Shown here in pieces: positions 10,480 to 38,187 of a stretch of DNA of 42,527 bases; the stretch's first letter is position 1; every line of letters begins with the position of its first letter. The DNA is taken from positions 1 to 42,527 of the forward strand of contig CACKCD010000005.1 in assembly GCA_902598595.1 (NCBI GenBank), written 5' to 3'. Below the pieces are notes generated by a model. The model had not been told where the DNA came from. It was given only the letters and a program-made list of their open reading frames with translations, and searched no databases. Source of the stretch: an uncultured Pelagibacteraceae bacterium. Its GTDB lineage: Bacteria > Pseudomonadota > Alphaproteobacteria > Pelagibacterales > Pelagibacteraceae. The position numbers and the translations under genes were made by a program.

Positions 10480-12222
10480 ATGGAATATAAAGAGTTAATA
10501 CTTATACTTAAAAGACTTTATAAAGAATATGTAAGAAAACATTTAAAAAGAATTGTATTAGCATTAATTTTATCTGTTTGCCTAGCACTAAGTACCTCGG
10601 GTATCGCATGGTTGTTAGACCCTGCGGTAAAAAAAATTTTTATAGAACAAAATAAAACTTTAGCATGGCTAATTCCTTTAGCAATCATGTTTGCATTTGC
10701 AACAAAAGGTATAACTTTATATTTTGCTAGAGTAATTATTATAAGAGTTGCTCAAGAAATTTGTGGAGAGCTTCAGAAAAAAATTTCTGAAAACATATTG
10801 TTTTCAGATGTTAAAACTCTTGATAGTAGACACTCTGGTAAATACATCTCAAATATTATGTATGACTCTCATCAAATTCAACAACTTGTTGGCGTCGGTG
10901 TTTTAAATTTAATGAAAGATAGCTTCACTGCAATCGCATTAGTTTTTGTAATGTTTTATCAAAATTGGAAGTTAGCGCTATTTGCAATTTTAATGATACC
11001 TTTAGCAGGAGGTTTAGCAAAAAGCTTGGGTAAAAGAGTTGGAAAGGTAGTTACTCAAGCAGGTGAACTGTCGGCAAATTTAACAACTCTTTTATCTGAA
11101 ATTTTTAAGGGTTCGAAAATGATTAGAATTTATCAAAAAGAGCAAATTGAGAATAAAAGAACCAATCAATTAATCGATGATTTAGTAGAAAAACATATAA
11201 AATATAACAGTGTTTTAATACGAGCACAGCCAATCATGGAAACTTTAACTGGAATTATGATTGCGGGTTTTATCTTTTTCTCAGGAAAATTAATTGCCTC
11301 TGGAGAATTAGAGATTAATAATTTTTTTTCATTTTTAACAGCAATGATGTTAGCTTACCAACCTATTAGGTCCTTAGCTACTATGAATATGGTCGCTTAC
11401 CAAGGAGGGGCAGCTTTCAAAAGAATTTCAAGAATTATTGATAAAGAAATAGAAATTAAAAACGAGCCAGGTCTTCCAAACCTTGTAATTGGCGATTGTG
11501 ACATTAGTTACAAAAACGTAAATTTTAAATACGATAACACAAATGATAAAGCCATAAAAAACCTCAATTTAGAGATAAAAGGAGGAACTATGACTGCATT
11601 AGTCGGGCATAGTGGAGCTGGAAAAAGTACAGTAATTAATTTGTTACCGAGATTCTATGATCCTCAAGGAGGAATTATTTCTATAGACGGTAAAAATACC
11701 CGTGAAGTAAACTTAAATTCCTTGAGAAAGAATATTTCTTTAGTCAGTCAAGATGTTATTTTATTTGATGATACAATAAAAAAAAATATTTCCTACGCTA
11801 ACCCCGAAGCGTCTAACGATGAACTAGAAGAAGCCTGTAGAAACTCTGCTGCTACAGAGTTTATTGAAAAATTACCTAAGAAGTTTAATACACTTGTGGG
11901 CGAAAACGGAGTGAGACTTTCAGGAGGTCAGAAACAAAGAATTTCTATAGCAAGAGCAATATTAAAAAAATCACCTATTATCTTGTTAGACGAAGCAACT
12001 TCTTCTCTTGATGCTGACTCAGAGGAAATAGTCCAACAAGCAATCAATAATTTAACAAAAAATAAAACCACTATAGTCATAGCTCATAGACTTTCTACAA
12101 TTCACAATGCTAAAGTTATATTTGTTTTAAAAAATGGAGCAGTGATTGATTCTGGTAATCATGATTTTCTTATGAATAGTTGTAAAGAATATAAATCACT
12201 TTATCAAAAACAATTAAAATAA
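10480..12222 (+). CDS. msbA: MsbA-like lipid A flippase, ABC exporter
   Basis: Half-size ABC exporter (580 residues) with six N-terminal membrane helices and a C-terminal ATPase domain. It is expected to flip lipid A-core across the inner membrane as a homodimer. ATPase motifs are complete: Walker A GHSGAGKST (about 376-384), Q-loop SLVSQDVILFDD, signature LSGGQKQR (about 480), Walker B IILLDEAT and H-loop IVIAHRLSTI. The assignment as MsbA and not another exporter rests on the context: waaA, lpxK and a lipid A acyltransferase follow directly, five bases downstream. Confidence 0.9.
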   Translation: MEYKELILILKRLYKEYVRKHLKRIVLALILSVCLALSTSGIAWLLDPAVKKIFIEQNKTLAWLIPLAIMFAFATKGITLYFARVIIIRVAQEICGELQKKISENILFSDVKTLDSRHSGKYISNIMYDSHQIQQLVGVGVLNLMKDSFTAIALVFVMFYQNWKLALFAILMIPLAGGLAKSLGKRVGKVVTQAGELSANLTTLLSEIFKGSKMIRIYQKEQIENKRTNQLIDDLVEKHIKYNSVLIRAQPIMETLTGIMIAGFIFFSGKLIASGELEINNFFSFLTAMMLAYQPIRSLATMNMVAYQGGAAFKRISRIIDKEIEIKNEPGLPNLVIGDCDISYKNVNFKYDNTNDKAIKNLNLEIKGGTMTALVGHSGAGKSTVINLLPRFYDPQGGIISIDGKNTREVNLNSLRKNISLVSQDVILFDDTIKKNISYANPEASNDELEEACRNSAATEFIEKLPKKFNTLVGENGVRLSGGQKQRISIARAILKKSPIILLDEATSSLDADSEEIVQQAINNLTKNKTTIVIAHRLSTIHNAKVIFVLKNGAVIDSGNHDFLMNSCKEYKSLYQKQLK

Positions 12223-12227
12223 GATTA

Positions 12228-13498
12228 ATGATTTATATTTATAGATTAATCACTATATTATTTTATCCAATTTTGATTATACTTATTTACCTGAGAAAAT
12301 TATCTAAAAAAGAAGATCATATTAGATATAAAGAGAAAATTTTTACATCCAAATTTTTTCCCAACAGAGATAAAAAAAAACAACTTATTTGGTTTCATGC
12401 TGCAAGTATAGGAGAAGTTCAAAGTATTTTTCCGTTGGTTAAAAAATTAAATAATGAAAAAAAAAATTTAGAATTTTTAATAACAACTGTCACGTTGAGT
12501 GGTGGAAAAATTGTACAAAAAAATTTATTGATTATAAAAATATTAATCATAGATATTTTCCACTGGATATAAATTTTCTAATAAAAAGTTTTTTAAATGA
12601 ATGGAAGCCAAATTTAGTAATATTTATAGACTCAGAAATATGGCCTAATTTAATTTTTGAAATTAAAAAAAGAAAAATTCCTATAGCTTTGGTAAACGGA
12701 AGAATAACAAAAAAAACATTTAATAAATGGATGTTAATTTCAAACTTTGCAAAAAAAATTTTTAACTCTTTTGATTTGTGTTTAGCATCAAGTAAAGAGT
12801 CGGAAAAAAATCTTAGAACACTTTCGGTCAAAAATTTAAAGTATATTGGAAATATAAAATTCTCAGGTGAAGTAGAAAAAAAAGATTTAGAAGATAAAAA
12901 TCTTGAAATATTAAAGAACAAAACTTTCTGGTGTGCAGCTAGTACACATAAAGGAGAGGAAAATATTTGTCTTAAAACTCATTTAAATTTAAAAAAAACT
13001 TATAATAATTTAGTTACAGTGATCATACCTAGACATATAAATAGATGTATTGAAATAAATGATTTGTGTAAAAAATATAAGCTTTCATCTCAAATACTAA
13101 GCGATAAAGAATTAATACAAGATGAAAGAGAAATAATAATTATAAATTATTTTGGAGCTTTATCTAAATTTTACAATTATTCAAAAAGCGTTTTTATAGG
13201 AAAGTCTATGATAAAAAAACTTGAAAAAGTTAGCGGTCAAAACCCTATTGAAGCAGCTAAACTAAAATGTAAGATATATCATGGTCCATATGTTTATAAT
13301 TTTAAAGAAATTTATGACCTTTTAAAATCATATGAAATTGCAGAGAAAGTTAATGATGAAAAAGAACTTTATGAAAAATTAACCAAAGACCTAAAAAAAT
13401 CAGAGGGTGATGAAGATAAAACAGCTAATATTATAAATGATATGGGGCAAAAAATATTAGATAAAACAACTGAAGAAATAAATAAATTTTTAACTTAA
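12228..13498 (+). CDS. waaA: Kdo transferase (WaaA), interrupted by a frameshift
   Basis: Transfers Kdo from CMP-Kdo to lipid IVA at the inner membrane. Frame 1 (12228-12572) encodes the anchor helix and WFHAASIGEVQS with the catalytic glutamate (E63), then runs into a stop. The rest continues in another frame: NHRYFPLD, SEIWPNLIFEI, NGRITKKTF, FDLCLASS and GQNPIEAAK. The switch falls at the A7 run at 12517-12523 (gtac-A7-ttt). One added A would give VQKKFIDYKN and a single chain of about 423 residues, the normal family length. No other damage is seen, and the stop overlaps the lpxK ATG (TAATG). Possible causes are a sequencing or assembly error, RNA-polymerase slippage, or a true mutation. 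Confidence 0.88.
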
Positions 13499-14427
13499 TG
13501 AAATTTTTAAAGCCTAAATTTTGGGATAATAAAAATAATATATTCGCAATTTTATTGAGGCCAACTTCTATTTTATTTTATTTTTTTATAAATTTAAAAA
13601 GATCTTTCACAAATGCAAAAAAATTTAAAATTCCTATTATTTGTGTGGGAAATATTTACGTTGGTGGAACTGGTAAAACACCGGTTTCAATGACAATTGC
13701 AAATGAATTAAAAATGAAAAAAAAAAATCCTGTAATAGTAAAAAAATATTATAAAGATCATAATGATGAGCATCAGATGATTAGAAAAATCGTCGACACT
13801 TTAATCTTAAATAAAAGTAGAGTACGAGCTCTTGAAGAAGCTGAGAAAAAAAATTTTGATGTAGCGATTTTAGATGATGGTTTTCAAGATTATAGAATAA
13901 AAAAAAACCTTAATATAGTTTGTTTCAATAGCAAACAACTCATAGGAAACGGTTTAGTTTTTCCAGCTGGTCCATTAAGAGAAAGTTTAAATTCTTTGAA
14001 AAGAGCACAAATTGTAATTATTAATGGAGAAAGAAATAAAGAATTTGAAAAAAAAATTTTAGAAATATCTAAAAATATAAAAATCTTCTATTCAGAGTAT
14101 TTGCCATCAAATATTGAACAGTTTAAAAATAAAAAACTCTGTGCTTTTGCTGGTATTGGAAATCCAAATAATTTTTTTGATTTGCTATCCAAACATAATC
14201 TAAATGTTCAAAAAAAGATTTCTTTCCCAGATCACTATAACTTCACTATAAATGAAATTGAAAAAATGAGTAAGATAGCGATTAAGAATGACTTTGAGCT
14301 TGTAACTACTGAAAAAGATTTTTATAGAATAAAAGATTACAATTTTAAAAATATTAAATACCTTAAAATAGAATTAATAATCAAAGAGATGAATAAGTTA
14401 ATTAGTGAGATAAAAAGTCATTTATGA
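13498..14427 (+). CDS. lpxK: Tetraacyldisaccharide 4'-kinase
   Basis: Membrane-associated P-loop kinase that phosphorylates the 4'-position of tetraacyldisaccharide 1-phosphate to make lipid IVA. The 309-residue protein has the N-terminal amphipathic helix, Walker A VGNIYVGGTGKTP (50-62), ILDDGFQD (124-131), GNGLVFPAGPLRE, and FPDHYNFT with the conserved histidine (H246). The usual SRGYG...GDEP segment is altered to KKYYKDHNDEHQM (82-94); the D-E pair is kept (D90, E91) but the glycines are lost. It starts on the waaA stop and overlaps the next gene by four bases (ATGA). Confidence 0.92.
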   Translation: MKFLKPKFWDNKNNIFAILLRPTSILFYFFINLKRSFTNAKKFKIPIICVGNIYVGGTGKTPVSMTIANELKMKKKNPVIVKKYYKDHNDEHQMIRKIVDTLILNKSRVRALEEAEKKNFDVAILDDGFQDYRIKKNLNIVCFNSKQLIGNGLVFPAGPLRESLNSLKRAQIVIINGERNKEFEKKILEISKNIKIFYSEYLPSNIEQFKNKKLCAFAGIGNPNNFFDLLSKHNLNVQKKISFPDHYNFTINEIEKMSKIAIKNDFELVTTEKDFYRIKDYNFKNIKYLKIELIIKEMNKLISEIKSHL

Positions 14428-15281
14428 TTAAGATTATTAAATATTTTTTTGAAGCTTTGATTATCTATTTATTTTTTATAATTATTAAAATAATTGGTCT
14501 TTCAAAAAGTCGAATTTTATTTTCATCTATTTTTAAAAAAATTGGGCCAATAATAAGATCTAGTAATATAACCAAAGAAAATCTTAATATATTTTCAAAT
14601 AATCTTTCAGAAAAAACTAAAAGCGAAATAGAACTAAACATGTGGTCAAACTACGGAAAAACTTTTGTCGAATATATGTTTTTAAAAAAATTTAGACAAG
14701 AAAATTCACACATTAAAATTGAAGGAAAAAAAATATTAGATGAAGTCTACTTAAAAAATAAACCAGTTATATTTGTTTCTGGTCATTTTGCTAATTTTGA
14801 ACTTATGTCTATGGAGATAACAAAAAATAAAATAAGTTTGGCAACTATTTATAGACCTTTAAACAATTTGTTTCTAAATCCATTGATGGAATACTTAAGA
14901 AAAAAATATATATGTAGCAATCAAATTAAAAAAGGACTCTTGGGTGTCAAAGAATGCATGACATATTTAAAAAAGGATTGCTGCATTGCTCTCATGATTG
15001 ACCAGAGAGTTAGTGAGGGAGATAAAATTAAATTTTTTGGTAAAGATGCTTACACAACTTCACTTCCTGCTCAATTATCTTTAAAATTTAATATAGATAT
15101 TATTCCAATTTTCTTAGAAAGAGAGAAGAATAATAATTTTATAATGTATGTAAATAAACCAATCAATTCATCAAGCTTTAAAGATAAATCAGAACTTACA
15201 AAAAAATTAAATAAAGTTTTAGAAGACATGATATTAAAAAATCCAAATCAGTGGATTTGGACACACAATAGATGGAAATAA
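14424..15281 (+). CDS. Lipid A acyltransferase (LpxL/HtrB family)
   Basis: Lysophospholipid acyltransferase-family protein that adds a secondary acyl chain to Kdo-lipid A or a precursor at the cytoplasmic face of the inner membrane. The 285-residue protein has an N-terminal hydrophobic anchor (about 8-26) and the catalytic HX4E motif in SGHFANFELMS (H121, E126). MIDQRVSEGDKIKFFG (the DQ...G..V.FFG block) and the C-terminal QWIWTHNRWK are family signatures. It closes the lipid A operon. I cannot tell LpxL from LpxM by sequence alone, so no symbol is given. Confidence 0.9.
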   Translation: MIKIIKYFFEALIIYLFFIIIKIIGLSKSRILFSSIFKKIGPIIRSSNITKENLNIFSNNLSEKTKSEIELNMWSNYGKTFVEYMFLKKFRQENSHIKIEGKKILDEVYLKNKPVIFVSGHFANFELMSMEITKNKISLATIYRPLNNLFLNPLMEYLRKKYICSNQIKKGLLGVKECMTYLKKDCCIALMIDQRVSEGDKIKFFGKDAYTTSLPAQLSLKFNIDIIPIFLEREKNNNFIMYVNKPINSSSFKDKSELTKKLNKVLEDMILKNPNQWIWTHNRWK

Positions 15282-27439: not shown

Positions 27440-28473
27440 ATATTTTTTAAGTTAATTGCTGCACCGACTGCAGGAATATTTCTTTTAGCTCCTAAACTTT
27501 TAAGTAAATCATCATAACGACCACCTCTTGCAATTTCTTTCTTTCCAGCAAATACTTCAAAAACAATTCCTGTATAATACTCTACCTCTCTCCCAAAATT
27601 TGCAATAAATTTTACATCTTGTCTAAGTTTCTTTAAATTTTGAATAGATTTTAAATCTTTAAAAATATTTTTTTTAAGATTATTTTTTTTTATAAAGTCT
27701 AATAATTTTTCATCAAGCGCTGATAGATTGCAATTAATTTTTAAAAAGGATTTAATAATTTTTACTATTTTTTTTCCATCACTTAAAGATCTAGGATCCT
27801 TTATTTTTTTATCAAATCTTATTAAAATCTCTGATACTGTTCTTCCTGCAACTTCTTTTTCCTGATTCATTTTTTTCATTTCATAAAACCTTTTTTTATC
27901 AGTATCAAAAGTCACAGCATCAATATCCGAATTTTTTTCTAAACGTTTTAAAAGTTCTTCAAAATACTTTGGTCTCCAAAAATGTCTAATTAATCTTAAT
28001 TTCCACCTTTCAGGTATATCAAGTGCATTTATTAAGCTTTTAAATAAAGCAATATCTCCAACTTTAATTTGAATTTTTTTACTTTTTATTTTTTTTGCTG
28101 AACTTAAAATTGTACTAATTACTTTAAAATCATCTTGAATTTTATTTTTTGAACCTAAAATTTCAATACCTAACTGTTCATTGATTAAGCTAGATCTTTT
28201 ATTATTTGATCTTCTGTATGCTTGCCCGGAGTAATAAATTTTTGAGTGCGTTTTTTTTTGTAAAAAATTTATGCAGGAAGCAACTGTCAGATCTGGTCTC
28301 AAGCACATTGTTTTTCCATCTTCGTTTTCAAAAGAAAGCATCGAACTTCTGAATTTTTCTCCAGATCTCTCAATAATGTACTCTGAGTCTAGCAACACAT
28401 CAGGTTCTGACAACACAAAGCCATTGCTCTTAAAAGTTTTAATTATTGTTTTAGATGATTTTTTTGATCTCAT
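27436..28473 (-). CDS. hisZ: ATP phosphoribosyltransferase regulatory subunit
   Basis: HisRS-like protein that pairs with short HisG to form the active, histidine-regulated enzyme; it does not charge tRNA. The 345-residue protein has the class II fold with LRPDLTVASCINF and RRSNNKRSSLINEQLGIEILG where HisRS motif 2 would be. The end reads YYTGIVFEVFAGKKEIARGGRYDDLLKSLG. There is no C-terminal anticodon-binding domain. It overlaps hisS by 23 bases and hisG by four. Confidence 0.92.
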   Translation of the reverse strand: MRSKKSSKTIIKTFKSNGFVLSEPDVLLDSEYIIERSGEKFRSSMLSFENEDGKTMCLRPDLTVASCINFLQKKTHSKIYYSGQAYRRSNNKRSSLINEQLGIEILGSKNKIQDDFKVISTILSSAKKIKSKKIQIKVGDIALFKSLINALDIPERWKLRLIRHFWRPKYFEELLKRLEKNSDIDAVTFDTDKKRFYEMKKMNQEKEVAGRTVSEILIRFDKKIKDPRSLSDGKKIVKIIKSFLKINCNLSALDEKLLDFIKKNNLKKNIFKDLKSIQNLKKLRQDVKFIANFGREVEYYTGIVFEVFAGKKEIARGGRYDDLLKSLGAKRNIPAVGAAINLKNI

Positions 28474-29785
28474 TAACTAATTCTTTAATTTCAATTGTTT
28501 TTTCCTTACCAGAACTAAGATTTCTTAATGTTGGCTTACCTGACTTAATCTCATCTTCACCATATAGAATAACAGCTGGAGATTTAATCTTATTTGCATA
28601 TTCCATTTGTTTTTTTAATTTACTTTCTCCAGGATATATTTCAGCGCTAATATCAGCCTCCCGTAATATTGTTTGCAATTTTATGTAATCTTTCATTGAA
28701 TTCTTTTCAAAGACACAAATAACAATGGGTCTAATTTGTTTTACTTTAAATTCTTTTTTTTGTATTAAAGCATAAACTAATCGGTCTAAGCCTATTGAAA
28801 TACCTGTAGCAGGAGCATCATAATTGCCAAAATTATTAACTAAATTGTCATATCTGCCTCCTCCTCCTATAGATCCAAATTGAATAATTTGTCCTTTTTT
28901 GTTTTTAACATCAAATTTCAAATTAACTTCAAAGATAACTCCTGTATAATATTCTAATCCTCTGATAATTGATGGATCAAATTCAAAGTTACTAAAATTA
29001 TAATTATTAAAAATTTTAAAGATCTCCAATAAATCACTTGTTTTGGCTGATTTTTTTTTCAATTCTTTTTCTATAGTCGCTATGCACTCCGAACTTAAAT
29101 TTGCGCCTTTTGTGAAATCTCCAGATTGATCTTTTCTACCGCTACCCAATAGCTGTTTTACACCTTCCCAACCCAACCTTTCAATTTTATCTAAAGCTCT
29201 TAAAGCAGTAAGTTTTTGTTGATTATCTATTACGTTTATTTTTTTAAATAATTCTTCAGTTATTTTTCTTGATGAGATCTTAATTATGTATTCTGATTTT
29301 TCCAAACCACATTTTTGAAGAATTTCTGAAATCATCACACATAATTCTGCATCTGCTTGCAAACTTTTAGTTCCGACGTAATCAGCGTCGAATTGTAAAA
29401 ATTCTCTATACCTTCCTGGTCCTGGTTTTTCATTTCTCCAAACAGTACCTAATTGATATCTTTTAAATGGTTTTGAAATTTCTAAATAATTTTTTGCAAC
29501 ATATCTTGCTAGAGGTGCTGTAAGATCATACCTTAGAGATAACCACTTATTTTCATCCTTAAATGAAAAAACACCTTCATCCGGTCTATCTTTATCAGGT
29601 AAAAATTTTCCAATACTGTCTGAATACTCGAAACTTGGTGTTTCAAGATATTGAAAACCATAATTGATCATAACTTCTTTAATATTAGAAATTATAAAAT
29701 CACGTACGAGTAATTCTTTTTCTTGCCTGTCTATAAACCCTAACGGAAGCTCTTTAGAGGGTTTGTTAATTTTATCTTTTGTCAT
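28451..29785 (-). CDS. hisS: Histidyl-tRNA synthetase
   Basis: Class II synthetase charging tRNA-His. From the ATG at 29785 it is 444 residues. Motif 2 is FKRYQLGTVWRNEKPGPGRYREFLQFDADYVG, the histidine-A motif is RGLEYYTGVIFEV, and motif 3 includes GISIGLDRLVYAL. The anticodon-binding domain follows at the C terminus. A longer frame to 29851 exists, but its first 22 residues are translated tRNA-His and are not real. The start codon is only four bases from the tRNA 3' end, with no space for a ribosome-binding site outside the tRNA. Confidence 0.95.
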   Translation of the reverse strand: MTKDKINKPSKELPLGFIDRQEKELLVRDFIISNIKEVMINYGFQYLETPSFEYSDSIGKFLPDKDRPDEGVFSFKDENKWLSLRYDLTAPLARYVAKNYLEISKPFKRYQLGTVWRNEKPGPGRYREFLQFDADYVGTKSLQADAELCVMISEILQKCGLEKSEYIIKISSRKITEELFKKINVIDNQQKLTALRALDKIERLGWEGVKQLLGSGRKDQSGDFTKGANLSSECIATIEKELKKKSAKTSDLLEIFKIFNNYNFSNFEFDPSIIRGLEYYTGVIFEVNLKFDVKNKKGQIIQFGSIGGGGRYDNLVNNFGNYDAPATGISIGLDRLVYALIQKKEFKVKQIRPIVICVFEKNSMKDYIKLQTILREADISAEIYPGESKLKKQMEYANKIKSPAVILYGEDEIKSGKPTLRNLSSGKEKTIEIKELVNEIKKII

Positions 29786-29789
29786 TTTT

Positions 29790-29866
29790 TGGTACAGCAG
29801 GGTGGATTCGAACCACCGACCCCTAGTTCCACAAACTAGTGCTCTAACCAACTGAGCTACTGCTGC
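29790..29866 (-). tRNA. tRNA-His (anticodon GTG), CCA encoded
   Basis: A 77-base cloverleaf on the minus strand. The acceptor GCAGCAG pairs with CTGCTGT (G1-U72 wobble). The D-arm is GCTC/GAGC, the anticodon stem is CTAGT/ACTAG with loop TTGTGGA (GTG), and the T-arm is GGTGG-TTCGAAT-CCACC. The discriminator is A73, followed by encoded CCA. The base at -1 is T, so the G-1 required by most bacterial HisRS is not encoded. Several alphaproteobacteria are known to have this A73, G-1-less form. It is directly upstream of hisS. Confidence 0.96.
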
Positions 29867-34453: not shown

Positions 34454-34773
34454 TAAAAAGGTAATTTGAAATCAGGAGGTAGATTCAATCCACCTGTAAC
34501 CTTTGAGAGTTCTTCAGCTGATTTCTTTTTTAAGTTATCTTTAGCGTTGTTATAAGCAGCCACAATTAAATCGTTAACTATTTCTTGATCTTCTTTTTTT
34601 GCCTCTTCACTAATGATGATTGATTTTAATTCATAATCTCCGGTTAAAATTACTTTCACTAAATTTCCACCTCCTAAACCTTCTACTTCGATTTTTTTAA
34701 TTTTTTCTTGAGCTTCTTTCATCTTATCTTGCATAGCTTTTGCTTTTGTAAGCATATCGGAAAAATTAGTCAT
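34453..34773 (-). CDS. YbaB/EbfC nucleoid-associated protein
   Basis: A 106-residue DNA-binding protein of the YbaB/EbfC family. It shows the MLTKAKAMQDKMKEAQEKIKKIEVEG helix, GGGNLVKVILTGDYELKSIIIS, and the C-terminal TGGLNLPPDFKLPF. It overlaps dnaX by eight bases and recR by one. Confidence 0.94.
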   Translation of the reverse strand: MTNFSDMLTKAKAMQDKMKEAQEKIKKIEVEGLGGGNLVKVILTGDYELKSIIISEEAKKEDQEIVNDLIVAAYNNAKDNLKKKSAEELSKVTGGLNLPPDFKLPF

Positions 34774-36439
34774 TGGTGTCCTCCTGGATATCTATAAGTT
34801 CTGCGTCAGGAAATGTTTCTTTGATTTGTTTAGCTAAATCGCTTTTTTCAAACTCTTTATATTTAAATGACTTTTTCTCCATATTTTGTTCATATATACT
34901 TTTAGCGTTACTATTTTTACTTAATGATATAATCCATCTTTCACCAGTCCAAAGTAATAATTTTTCAGTCAGGTTTTTAATAAAACTTTGATTTAATTTC
35001 TCATTGAAACTAATATCGATTTTACCTTTGTTGAAACTCACTAACTTTACATTTCGCTCTAAATCAAATTTAAGCTCTACTTCTTTTTCTTTATTTGCTA
35101 AATCAATTAAATCTTGAAAATTTTTAATCTCAACTTTAGCTTTGGGAGAAATGTCATTTGTTGGGTTTTTTTTAATTTGGTCTGTATTCTTTAATTGATT
35201 TTTAATTTGAGTAGATAAATTATTTTCCAAATTTTCTTCTATTTTATTTTCACTAACTAAATTATTTTCTCTAGAAGATTTGCCTTCTTGAACAGTATTT
35301 TCATAAATTTCGGTTTTATTTTCAATATTTTTAAGATGAACTAATTGCATAATATACATTTCGAGTGTCAAATTTTCGTTACCTACAATTCTAAGATCAT
35401 CAATTGTTTTAATTGTAAGTTGCCAAAATAATCCTATGTCCTGCATGTCAATGTTCTTAGAATAATCGTGAACCATTTGGACCTCAGCCTCAGATGTTGT
35501 CATATCTTTCTCAATGGAACCTAAATTTATTCTTCTGCTAAAGAGATAAAGAACTTCTAAAATATCATTTAAAAAGTTTTTAGCATCTATCCCATCATTG
35601 ATTAATTCTCGTAAATATTGCAAAGCTTCTTTCTCTTTTCCACTTAAAACTTCTTTAAATAAAGATATAATTTTACTTCTATCTGCAAGGCCTAACATTT
35701 CTCGGACATTTGTTTCTCCTATTAAATTATCTTTGCTAATAGATTGAGAGATTAAAGCTCGGTCCAAAAGTGATATTGCATCTCTTACAGAACCTTCTGA
35801 TGTTCTAGCGATTAATTTAATTGCATCTTCTGAAATTTTTCCAGCCTCTTTATCTGAAATATTTTTTAAATGACTACAAAGTTTATCAATACTCACTCTC
35901 TTGAGATCAAATCTTTGACATCTAGATAAAATAGTTACAGGAATTTTTCTTACTTCCGTAGTAGCTAAAATAAATTTTAAACTAGGAGGTGGCTCTTCTA
36001 AAGTTTTAAGCAAACCATTAAAAGCTTGCTTTGAAAGCATGTGAACCTCATCAATAATAAAAATTTTATACTTTGCGCTTGTTGGGCTGTACTTTGAATT
36101 TTCGATTAGTTCTCTTATATCGTCTATTCCTGTTTTAGAAGCAGCATCCATTTCTAAAATATCCATGTGGTTAGAATTAATAATTTCAGAACAATGACAA
36201 TATTCACCTGACTTACATTTTTCTCCTTTAGAAAAATCCTTGCTACAGTTTAAAGCTTTAGCAATTAATCTAGCTGTTGTTGTTTTTCCTACTCCTCTAA
36301 TTCCTGTAAGAAGATAAGCATTTGGGGTTTTACCTAGCTTAATGGCATTAGTAATAGTTTGAGCCATCACTTCTTGACCTATCAAATCTTTAAATTCTTG
36401 AGGTCTATATTTAAGAGCTAGAATTTTATTTTTTGTCAT
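34766..36439 (-). CDS. dnaX: DNA polymerase III subunit gamma/tau
   Basis: Clamp-loader ATPase. The 557-residue protein has Walker A TGIRGVGKTTT (45-55), a zinc module with C65, C75, C81 and C83, Walker B FIIDEVHMLSKQAFNGLLKTLEEPP, and the sensor SRCQRFDLKR. The middle carries a variable, Asn/Lys-rich linker (about 370-430), and the C-terminal part is tau-like. I did not identify a convincing slippery site for a shorter gamma form. It starts six bases after the SRP RNA gene. Confidence 0.96.
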   Translation of the reverse strand: MTKNKILALKYRPQEFKDLIGQEVMAQTITNAIKLGKTPNAYLLTGIRGVGKTTTARLIAKALNCSKDFSKGEKCKSGEYCHCSEIINSNHMDILEMDAASKTGIDDIRELIENSKYSPTSAKYKIFIIDEVHMLSKQAFNGLLKTLEEPPPSLKFILATTEVRKIPVTILSRCQRFDLKRVSIDKLCSHLKNISDKEAGKISEDAIKLIARTSEGSVRDAISLLDRALISQSISKDNLIGETNVREMLGLADRSKIISLFKEVLSGKEKEALQYLRELINDGIDAKNFLNDILEVLYLFSRRINLGSIEKDMTTSEAEVQMVHDYSKNIDMQDIGLFWQLTIKTIDDLRIVGNENLTLEMYIMQLVHLKNIENKTEIYENTVQEGKSSRENNLVSENKIEENLENNLSTQIKNQLKNTDQIKKNPTNDISPKAKVEIKNFQDLIDLANKEKEVELKFDLERNVKLVSFNKGKIDISFNEKLNQSFIKNLTEKLLLWTGERWIISLSKNSNAKSIYEQNMEKKSFKYKEFEKSDLAKQIKETFPDAELIDIQEDTND

Positions 36440-36444
36440 TTAAA

Positions 36445-36534
36445 GAGGCAGGCAACAACCTGAACAATTTTCACTACGGCTGCTTCTTTTCAGACCTGAC
36501 CGGGTTTATGAAACATCCACCTGATGCCAACCTC
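36445..36534 (-). ncRNA. ffs: Signal recognition particle RNA (4.5S)
   Basis: About 90 bases forming one long hairpin. The universally conserved apex GGTCAGGTC-TGAAAA-GAAGCAGCC is present (36505 down to 36482): the symmetric and asymmetric loops match, with a GAAA tetraloop closed by a U-A pair in place of the usual C-GGAA-G. The ends pair (GAGG at 36534 with CCTC at 36445, and GGCA with TGCC). No Alu domain is present, as in most Gram-negative bacteria. Exact ends are approximate. It is directly upstream of dnaX. Confidence 0.92.
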
Positions 36535-36540
36535 AATATG

Positions 36541-36592: not shown

Positions 36593-37435
36593 CTATTTTT
36601 GCCTAAATGCTGAGGCTTCATACACGCCTAATATATGCAAAGTTTCAGTGTGAAAACCAAGTTCCTCCATTGCTTTTCTTACACCAGTTTCCTCAAGATG
36701 GCCCTCTAAATCCAAATAGAAGTTGGCCTGGTCAAAAGTATTTTTAACTGAAAAACTCTCTAATTTTGTTAGGTTAACTTGATTAGTTGCAAATCCCCCT
36801 AGACATTTGTAAAGAGCTGATGGTTCGCTTTTAACTCTAAAAATACAACTAGTTATAAATTTTTTTTCTTTTTTAAATTCTGGTTGTTCTATGTTCTTTC
36901 CCATAATAAGAAAACGAGTTACATTGCCTTTTTCATCTTCTATATTTTTCTCTAAAATTTTTAATTTATAAGTTTTGGCAGAAAGTTCAGATGCAATTGC
37001 TGCAATAGTCTTATCCTTACCCTCAGCCAAATCTTTAGCAGATCCTGCCGTATCAGCTGAAATAATAGGTTGAAATTTATTTTTATTTATTATCTTCTGA
37101 CACTGGCCAATAGCTTGAGCATGACTTCTAACAAATTTAATATCTTTGATCGTTGCTTCAGGTTTGCAAAGTAAATTATGCTCAACATTTAAAAAATATT
37201 CTCCATGAATTTGGAGTTTATACTTTGGTAATAAATAATGTATATCAGCAACTCTGCCTGCTAAAGAATTTTCTATAGGGATGATAATCTTAAAATTATC
37301 ATCTTCATAGGCTTGTTTAAATGTTTCTTCAAAGGACGCACACGTTTTAATCTCAGCATCTTTAAATAAACTGTTAGCTGCAATATGAGAATAAGCACCA
37401 AGTTCACCTTGTATAGCGATTTTAATTTTGTTCAT
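36593..37435 (-). CDS. pheA: Prephenate dehydratase
   Basis: Converts prephenate to phenylpyruvate for phenylalanine synthesis. The 280-residue protein has the catalytic domain (IAIQGELGAYSHIAA, IPIENSLAGRV, VRSHAQAIGQC, ADTAGSAKDLA, and GNVTRFLIMG with the conserved Thr-Arg-Phe). A C-terminal ACT domain follows (ALYKCLGGFATNQVNLTKLES). The ESRP effector motif of many enzymes reads ESFS here, as in other alphaproteobacterial forms, so feedback control may differ. No chorismate mutase domain is fused. It overlaps kdsB by 14 bases. Confidence 0.95.
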   Translation of the reverse strand: MNKIKIAIQGELGAYSHIAANSLFKDAEIKTCASFEETFKQAYEDDNFKIIIPIENSLAGRVADIHYLLPKYKLQIHGEYFLNVEHNLLCKPEATIKDIKFVRSHAQAIGQCQKIINKNKFQPIISADTAGSAKDLAEGKDKTIAAIASELSAKTYKLKILEKNIEDEKGNVTRFLIMGKNIEQPEFKKEKKFITSCIFRVKSEPSALYKCLGGFATNQVNLTKLESFSVKNTFDQANFYLDLEGHLEETGVRKAMEELGFHTETLHILGVYEASAFRQK

Positions 37436-38165
37436 TTTTTTCCATCAAATTTTTAACTTCAGTCAGATCTTCTTCGGTGTCAACACTTAATGGAGAAGAT
37501 TTTATATATCCAACATGTATCGACATATTATTTTCTAGGGCTCTAAGCTGTTCAAGTTTTCTCTCTAATTCTAATTTAGATCTTTTCAAACCTACATACC
37601 TTATCAAAGCTTCATTAGTAAAGGCATAAATACCGATATGATGATATAAATTATATGATGAATTAGCGTTAACTCTAAAAAAATCCAATGCGTTTAAAAA
37701 AGTATTTTTTGAAAGTTTTTCCTTAACAGCTACTTTAACTACATTTGGATTATCCATTTCATGATTAGAATTAAAATCGCTTGCTAAAGTTCCAATATCA
37801 CATTTGCCTTTATTCATATAAGAAACTAAATCAGAAATTGCCTGGGGTTCGATGTTGGGCATATCTCCTTGTAAATTAATAATAATTTTAGGTTCTTCTT
37901 TTAATGTTTTTTTGAACACCTCAAATATTCTATCTGTTCCTGTTTCATGGTCTGAAGATGTTTTTATTGCGTTGCCCCCTGAGTTTTTAACTATATCAAT
38001 TATTTTATCATCCGGTGTTGCAACATAAACTTCCCCTGTATTTGACTTAATAGCTGCATCATAAACATGTAAAATCATCTCTTTACTGTTTATAAGTTTT
38101 AAAGGTTTATTAGGAAATCTTTGAGCATCAAGTCTGGAAGGTATTATTATTGCAATTTTGTTCAT
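37422..38165 (-). CDS. kdsB: 3-deoxy-manno-octulosonate cytidylyltransferase
   Basis: Makes CMP-Kdo, the donor used by WaaA, from CTP and Kdo. From the ATG at 38165 the protein is 247 residues. Motifs are IIIPSRLDAQRFPNKPL, GNAIKTSSDHETGTDRIFEV, INLQGDMPNIEP, YHHIGIYAFTNEAL, LERKLEQLRALENN and VDTEEDL. An earlier in-frame ATG at 38180 would add five residues inside a perfect hairpin and is less likely. kdsB-pheA next to a membrane cytochrome c is a known alphaproteobacterial order. Confidence 0.95.
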   Translation of the reverse strand: MNKIAIIIPSRLDAQRFPNKPLKLINSKEMILHVYDAAIKSNTGEVYVATPDDKIIDIVKNSGGNAIKTSSDHETGTDRIFEVFKKTLKEEPKIIINLQGDMPNIEPQAISDLVSYMNKGKCDIGTLASDFNSNHEMDNPNVVKVAVKEKLSKNTFLNALDFFRVNANSSYNLYHHIGIYAFTNEALIRYVGLKRSKLELERKLEQLRALENNMSIHVGYIKSSPLSVDTEEDLTEVKNLMEKNEQN

Positions 38166-38170
38166 AATTG

Positions 38171-38187
38171 TGCGTCTCAAAGACGCA
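38171..38187 (-). promoter_or_regulatory. Perfect hairpin just before kdsB
   Basis: TGCGTCT and AGACGCA (7 bp, three-base loop) end five bases before the kdsB ATG on the minus strand. It is GC-richer than its surroundings. In the mRNA it would sit where a ribosome-binding site is expected, and none is seen there. No T-run follows, so it is not a terminator. Confidence 0.55.

Follow-up and report, generated by a model that had tools for sequence, protein, structure and literature searches.

In the assembled genome of an uncultured member of the Pelagibacteraceae, waaA lacks a single uninterrupted reading frame. WaaA is the Kdo transferase, which attaches Kdo to the lipid A precursor. The question raised by this locus is whether the cell has lost the enzyme, produces it by some form of recoding, or carried an ordinary gene that was altered on its way into the assembly. 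Comparison of the DNA with that of related genomes favors the last answer: the break in waaA is very probably a technical one-nucleotide indel rather than a mutation carried by the cell.

Results

The window, meaning the whole stretch of 42,527 nucleotides analyzed here, is contig C5 of an AT-rich draft genome (29% GC) that comprises 39 contigs, totals 725,424 bases, and is 65.6% complete. The nearest named relatives of this genome are the Pelagibacteraceae AG-325-E13 (G108), AG-439-L10 (G005), and AG-390-C22 (G106). We take relatives with AG- names to be single amplified genomes and infer that the window genome (G000) is one as well, like these named nearest relatives. The gene row around waaA consists of ubiA, an msbA-like gene, waaA, lpxK, and a lauroyl-acyltransferase-like gene, with kdsB elsewhere in the window. 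The features that bear on the break are the following.

10480–12222, plus strand: msbA-like ABC transporter gene, open (TIGR02203, 489 bits, below the cut-off of 602)
12228–12572, plus strand: first piece of waaA, from ATG to an out-of-frame stop (PF04413 profile positions 10–65)
12517–12523, plus strand: A7 run, the point of frame loss; relatives have one nucleotide more in the homologous stretch
12524–13498, plus strand: second piece of waaA, in the −1 frame (PF04413 profile positions 68–177), with a stop that overlaps the ATG of lpxK
13498–14427, plus strand: lpxK, open (TIGR00682, 193 bits, cut-off 92)
14424–15281, plus strand: lauroyl-acyltransferase-like gene, open (best match NF005120, 139 bits, below the cut-off of 273)
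37422–38180, minus strand: kdsB, open (TIGR00466, 168 bits, cut-off 155)

The original prediction described a waaA gene split by a −1 frameshift among intact lpxK, msbA, acyltransferase, and kdsB genes. These four ORFs are indeed open; the matches of ubiA, lpxK, and kdsB exceed the NCBIfam cut-offs, whereas those of the msbA-like and acyltransferase-like genes fall below theirs. The coordinates of the split are also right, with the ATG at 12228, the stop at 12572, and seven A at 12517–12523. A comparison of the waaA region with phage records gave no match at megablast sensitivity. Elsewhere in the window, within 28451–29866 on the minus strand, a tRNA gene at 29793–29866 overlaps the upstream part of a hisS-like ORF, so the true start of this ORF is probably further downstream than the listed TTG at 29851. 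A small bacterial SRP RNA (36441–36535, minus strand; RF00169, 55.2 bits) lies directly upstream of an ORF at 34766–36439 that is dnaX-like by eye.

The first piece of waaA follows the family sequence as far as the A run and then continues for 16 unrelated codons, and the −1 frame has no stop from 12458 until the one that ends at 13498. Searches with PF04413 (179 positions; cut-off 23.9) give 56.9 bits for the first piece (E = 2.5e-15) and 117.3 bits for the second (E = 7.2e-34), and the genome, 65.6% complete, contains no other match. Together they keep all 66 of the 66 columns that are invariant in an alignment of WaaA from 15 SAR11 relatives; the conserved residues retained include the N-terminal Gly-Glu and later conserved motifs. 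The expectation that the rest of WaaA runs with its family motifs up to the stop overlapping lpxK is thus borne out, and a chance arrangement of ORFs can be rejected, since the two pieces belong to one family by profile match and between them retain every invariant residue. A two-subunit enzyme made by reinitiation was judged unlikely. The second frame contains no ATG, GTG, or TTG between 12458 and 12688, and its first possible start codon is at 12689; separate translation of the full second part is therefore unlikely. The split is far beyond chance ORF structure, yet such one-nucleotide breaks are not rare in these assemblies.

A comparison of the A run with related genomes, as the original prediction had suggested, shows that the window copy is one nucleotide short. 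The gene is 78–83% identical at the DNA level to those of its nearest relatives, and at the site of the break two of the four nearest carry A9, a third has A8 and then G, and in the fourth the run is interrupted. A profile search of 169 genomes of the genus found WaaA in 128; contig ends truncate the gene in six (G118, G121, G167, G177, G180, and G190), leaving 122 assessable. In 119 of these 122, waaA occupies one open frame. It is broken in three, each at a different site and with a different lesion: a 1-nt deletion in the window genome; in G058, one nucleotide inserted into an A run around residue 165; and in G041 (L132, C8:16800-18600), a deletion of 83 nt from the C-terminal half, which puts the remainder out of frame as well and is either an assembly error or a real loss. 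None of the 122 assessable genomes other than that of the window is broken at the window's site, and because the sites and lesions of the three breaks differ, there is no conserved candidate recoding site. A PF04413 search of 101 relatives, with 79 matches, gives the same picture. The waaA loci of relatives from earlier searches are likewise all in one frame, with one (L049) cut by a contig end, and comprise 61 distinct whole proteins. One short PF04413 match was seen in G089, a genome of another family.

The main rival of a technical indel is a real one-nucleotide deletion in the chromosome, that is, a recent and unrescued loss of waaA in one cell or a small lineage that would likely be purged. 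We consider such a deletion unlikely. It would be at home in this sequence context, as A runs are naturally prone to deletion, and A8 to A9 is found at this position in the nearest relatives. A recent loss also predicts, as an artefact does, that the remainder of waaA should be undecayed. Compared with four relatives, the downstream part has a dN/dS of 0.17–0.19, similar to the 0.13–0.20 found among the relatives themselves, and that of the upstream piece is 0.11–0.20. These values uphold the earlier view that the gene is not decaying and, together with the single lesion, lead us to reject an old pseudogene. Private amino-acid changes in the window lineage exceed those in the sister, by our tally, in five of six comparisons downstream of the break (window versus sister, 21-32, 28-17, 22-20, 21-13, 28-12, and 27-15) and in four of six upstream (8-13, 9-6, 8-7, 8-4, 8-2, and 4-5). 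These counts mildly suggest that the protein has changed faster in the window lineage, both upstream and downstream of the break, and the slightly raised rate is a point in favor of a real deletion. A further relative-rate count with G106 as the outgroup (38 versus 11 downstream and 16 versus 3 upstream) was dropped because G106 is closer to G005 than the window is. Overall, the selection data fit a recent mutation and an artefact alike and do not fit an old pseudogene. Against a real deletion stand the open lpxK and kdsB and the finding that the site is broken in no other genome of the genus.

The balance between a technical indel and a private real mutation rests on control genes. The primase gene dnaG is universally essential, and a dividing cell cannot do without it. 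Its profile (TIGR01391, 414 positions) is similar in length to WaaA (425), and it was searched for in the same 169 genomes. There were 130 matches: 116 unbroken over the model, three broken, and 11 set aside, of which five were confirmed to lie at contig ends (G047, G113, G157, G177, and G198) and six were judged by coordinates only (G000, G050, G052, G154, G171, and G206). Thus, 119 genomes are assessable, and three of them (G015, G196, and G121) have a dnaG interrupted within a contig, which is as often as for waaA (3 of 122). The copy in G121 (L146, C6:25200-27600) has four separate non-triplet insertions relative to that of G106, three of them in A or T runs and the fourth an extra G beside an A9 run, and this genome looks like an error-rich assembly. 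The breaks in G015 (L147) and G196 (L142) are about 15 codons apart or less, in different A/T tracts near the end of the TIGR01391 region; the exact extra base in G015 is ambiguous and adjoins an A5-T5 tract. This stretch of dnaG is probably an error hot spot. Since a gene needed by every dividing cell is hit at a similar rate, most of these breaks are probably technical and not real mutations.

The second control, ahcY (TIGR00936, 416 positions), has an interrupted copy within a contig of G106; among the matches listed, at least 126 are over the cut-off and at least 124 are full length. The gene ends or begins at contig ends in G124 and G026 (the latter from coordinates only), and G020 was left unclassified. 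In G111 (L148, C23:94200-95465), the last 130 nt or so of the contig fail to align with ahcY and resemble a chimeric contig end.

A survey of five assemblies found seven 1-nt frameshifts in 687,777 nt compared, or about 1 per 100 kb. They affect waaA (G000), ahcY (G106), a ChvG-like sensor kinase gene and mnmG (G005), an FAD-monooxygenase-like gene (G108), and dnaG and uvrC (G015), and in every case a homopolymeric A or T run of at least five lies at the break or next to it. The matches of the kinase, the monooxygenase, and the partial uvrC are below the NCBIfam cut-offs. The breaks in mnmG, uvrC, and dnaG were each called against one intact reference, with that in dnaG also backed by the 169-genome profile search. 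Both the count of seven and the resulting rate are minima, as nine cases were examined from 45 candidate rows; the other rows comprised N-terminal extensions (for example, hisS), antisense ORFs, short ORFs, and small N-terminal pieces. Two candidates were left uncounted: G015_L116, a 2-nt difference directly upstream of an ATG, and G015_L117a, a short ORF that is probably non-genic. Of 262.5 kb of the window genome, 79.5 kb could be compared.

The surveyed rate can be set beside published values, here taken from excerpts of the papers cited. A benchmark of the same kind of single-cell workflow found, averaged over three cultures, 3.0 indels per 100 kb (PMC8443664). The small, repeat-poor Prochlorococcus single-cell assemblies had the fewest indels (PMC5519541), and the average may for this reason overestimate the rate in SAR11. 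With an indel rate between 1 and 3 per 100 kb, coding sequence like that of the window, about 39.8 kb in length, would carry one or more indels with a probability of 33–70%. A literature search joining single amplified genomes, SAR11, and frameshift found no paper.

Discussion

The original prediction offered two readings of the split, a sequencing error or reliance on slippage by RNA polymerase. The first gains support from the 119 of 122 genomes with an intact waaA, from the breaks of the same kind in dnaG and ahcY, and from a break rate that fits the indel rate in the available part of the published workflow benchmark. Breaks are spread over genes regardless of essentiality, occurring in dnaG (3/119), in ahcY (one genome), and in the seven survey genes. 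In the most probable course of events, one nucleotide would have been lost at the A run during amplification, sequencing, or assembly of the single cell's DNA, and the cell itself probably carried an intact, ordinary WaaA.

Slippage would turn a real deletion into a tolerable one, with RNA polymerase adding bases at the A run as in some insect endosymbionts. We regard this as highly improbable, even though the genome is AT-rich, the break is at an A run, and a review, as excerpted, reports correction of 12–50% of transcripts at long poly(A) runs in two endosymbionts (PMC5009743). The run at the break is only A7, shorter than the in-frame A9 (12372–12380) and A10 (12457–12466) located upstream in the same gene, which holds eleven A runs of seven or more. 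Insertion errors increase exponentially with run length, according to the accessible portion of PMC5574713, so slippage that was useful at A7 would do more harm at A9 and A10. Such runs are also common in the window, where 121 of them are spread over 36 of the 41 open genes listed. The same portion of PMC5574713 reports that frame-restoring transcription errors were not found in Buchnera or E. coli. With the site unbroken in relatives as well, the slippage reading is left unsupported.

A −1 shift by the ribosome at A_AAA_AAT (12518–12524) would resume exactly in the WaaA frame, and as the means of rescuing a real deletion it is no more credible than slippage. The heptamer fits the X_XXY_YYZ pattern and is correctly phased, and the family sequence does continue in the −1 frame. 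Against this, folding of 12517–12620, carried out without pseudoknots, detected no unusual downstream structure (z = +0.64, with 147 of 200 shuffles folding at least as well). The heptamer occurs in frame 54 times in the 41 open window genes, and the split is not conserved, with 119 of 122 genomes having one frame and the other two breaks being elsewhere in the gene. In the text available to us, PMC4066793 describes A_AAA_AAC as inefficient in E. coli, a statement on the AAC form, whereas the site here ends in AAT. Frequent shifting at either A7 or A_AAA_AAT would be expected to harm many window genes. It is similarly far-fetched that this SAR11 genus tolerates single-nucleotide breaks in essential genes (waaA and dnaG, for example) through unusually loose transcription or decoding of A runs, in which case many genes broken on paper would still give enough protein.

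The reading of the waaA break as a technical indel carries a caution. In these AT-rich assemblies, one-nucleotide breaks at A or T runs, at about 1 per 100 kb compared, can make an essential gene look lost or recoded. An argument from one assembly that a SAR11 gene has been lost or recoded needs the reads or independent genomes behind it.

The locus can be compared with four known systems. It resembles the Kdo transferase WaaA/KdtA (PF04413) in the family matches of both pieces, in the complete set of invariant residues, and in its position between an msbA-like gene and lpxK; it differs in that the assembled gene lies in two frames. As in the poly(A) slippage of Buchnera and Blochmannia, to the extent covered by the part of the review at hand (PMC5009743), a frameshift at an A run interrupts an otherwise preserved gene in an AT-rich genome. 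In contrast to those cases, the run is not long, longer runs in the same gene remain in frame, and sister assemblies show random breaks. Programmed −1 frameshifting at X_XXY_YYZ sites, as outlined in the accessible sections of PMC4066793, shares with this locus the in-phase A_AAA_AAT at the break; here, however, the downstream structure and the conserved break are lacking, and the heptamer is common in intact genes. The locus also resembles the assemblies of single amplified genomes (WGA-X). The benchmark cultures in the consulted parts of PMC8443664 and PMC5519541 are organisms other than SAR11, with no differing feature seen otherwise, and in both settings small indels are scattered over any gene at a comparable rate.
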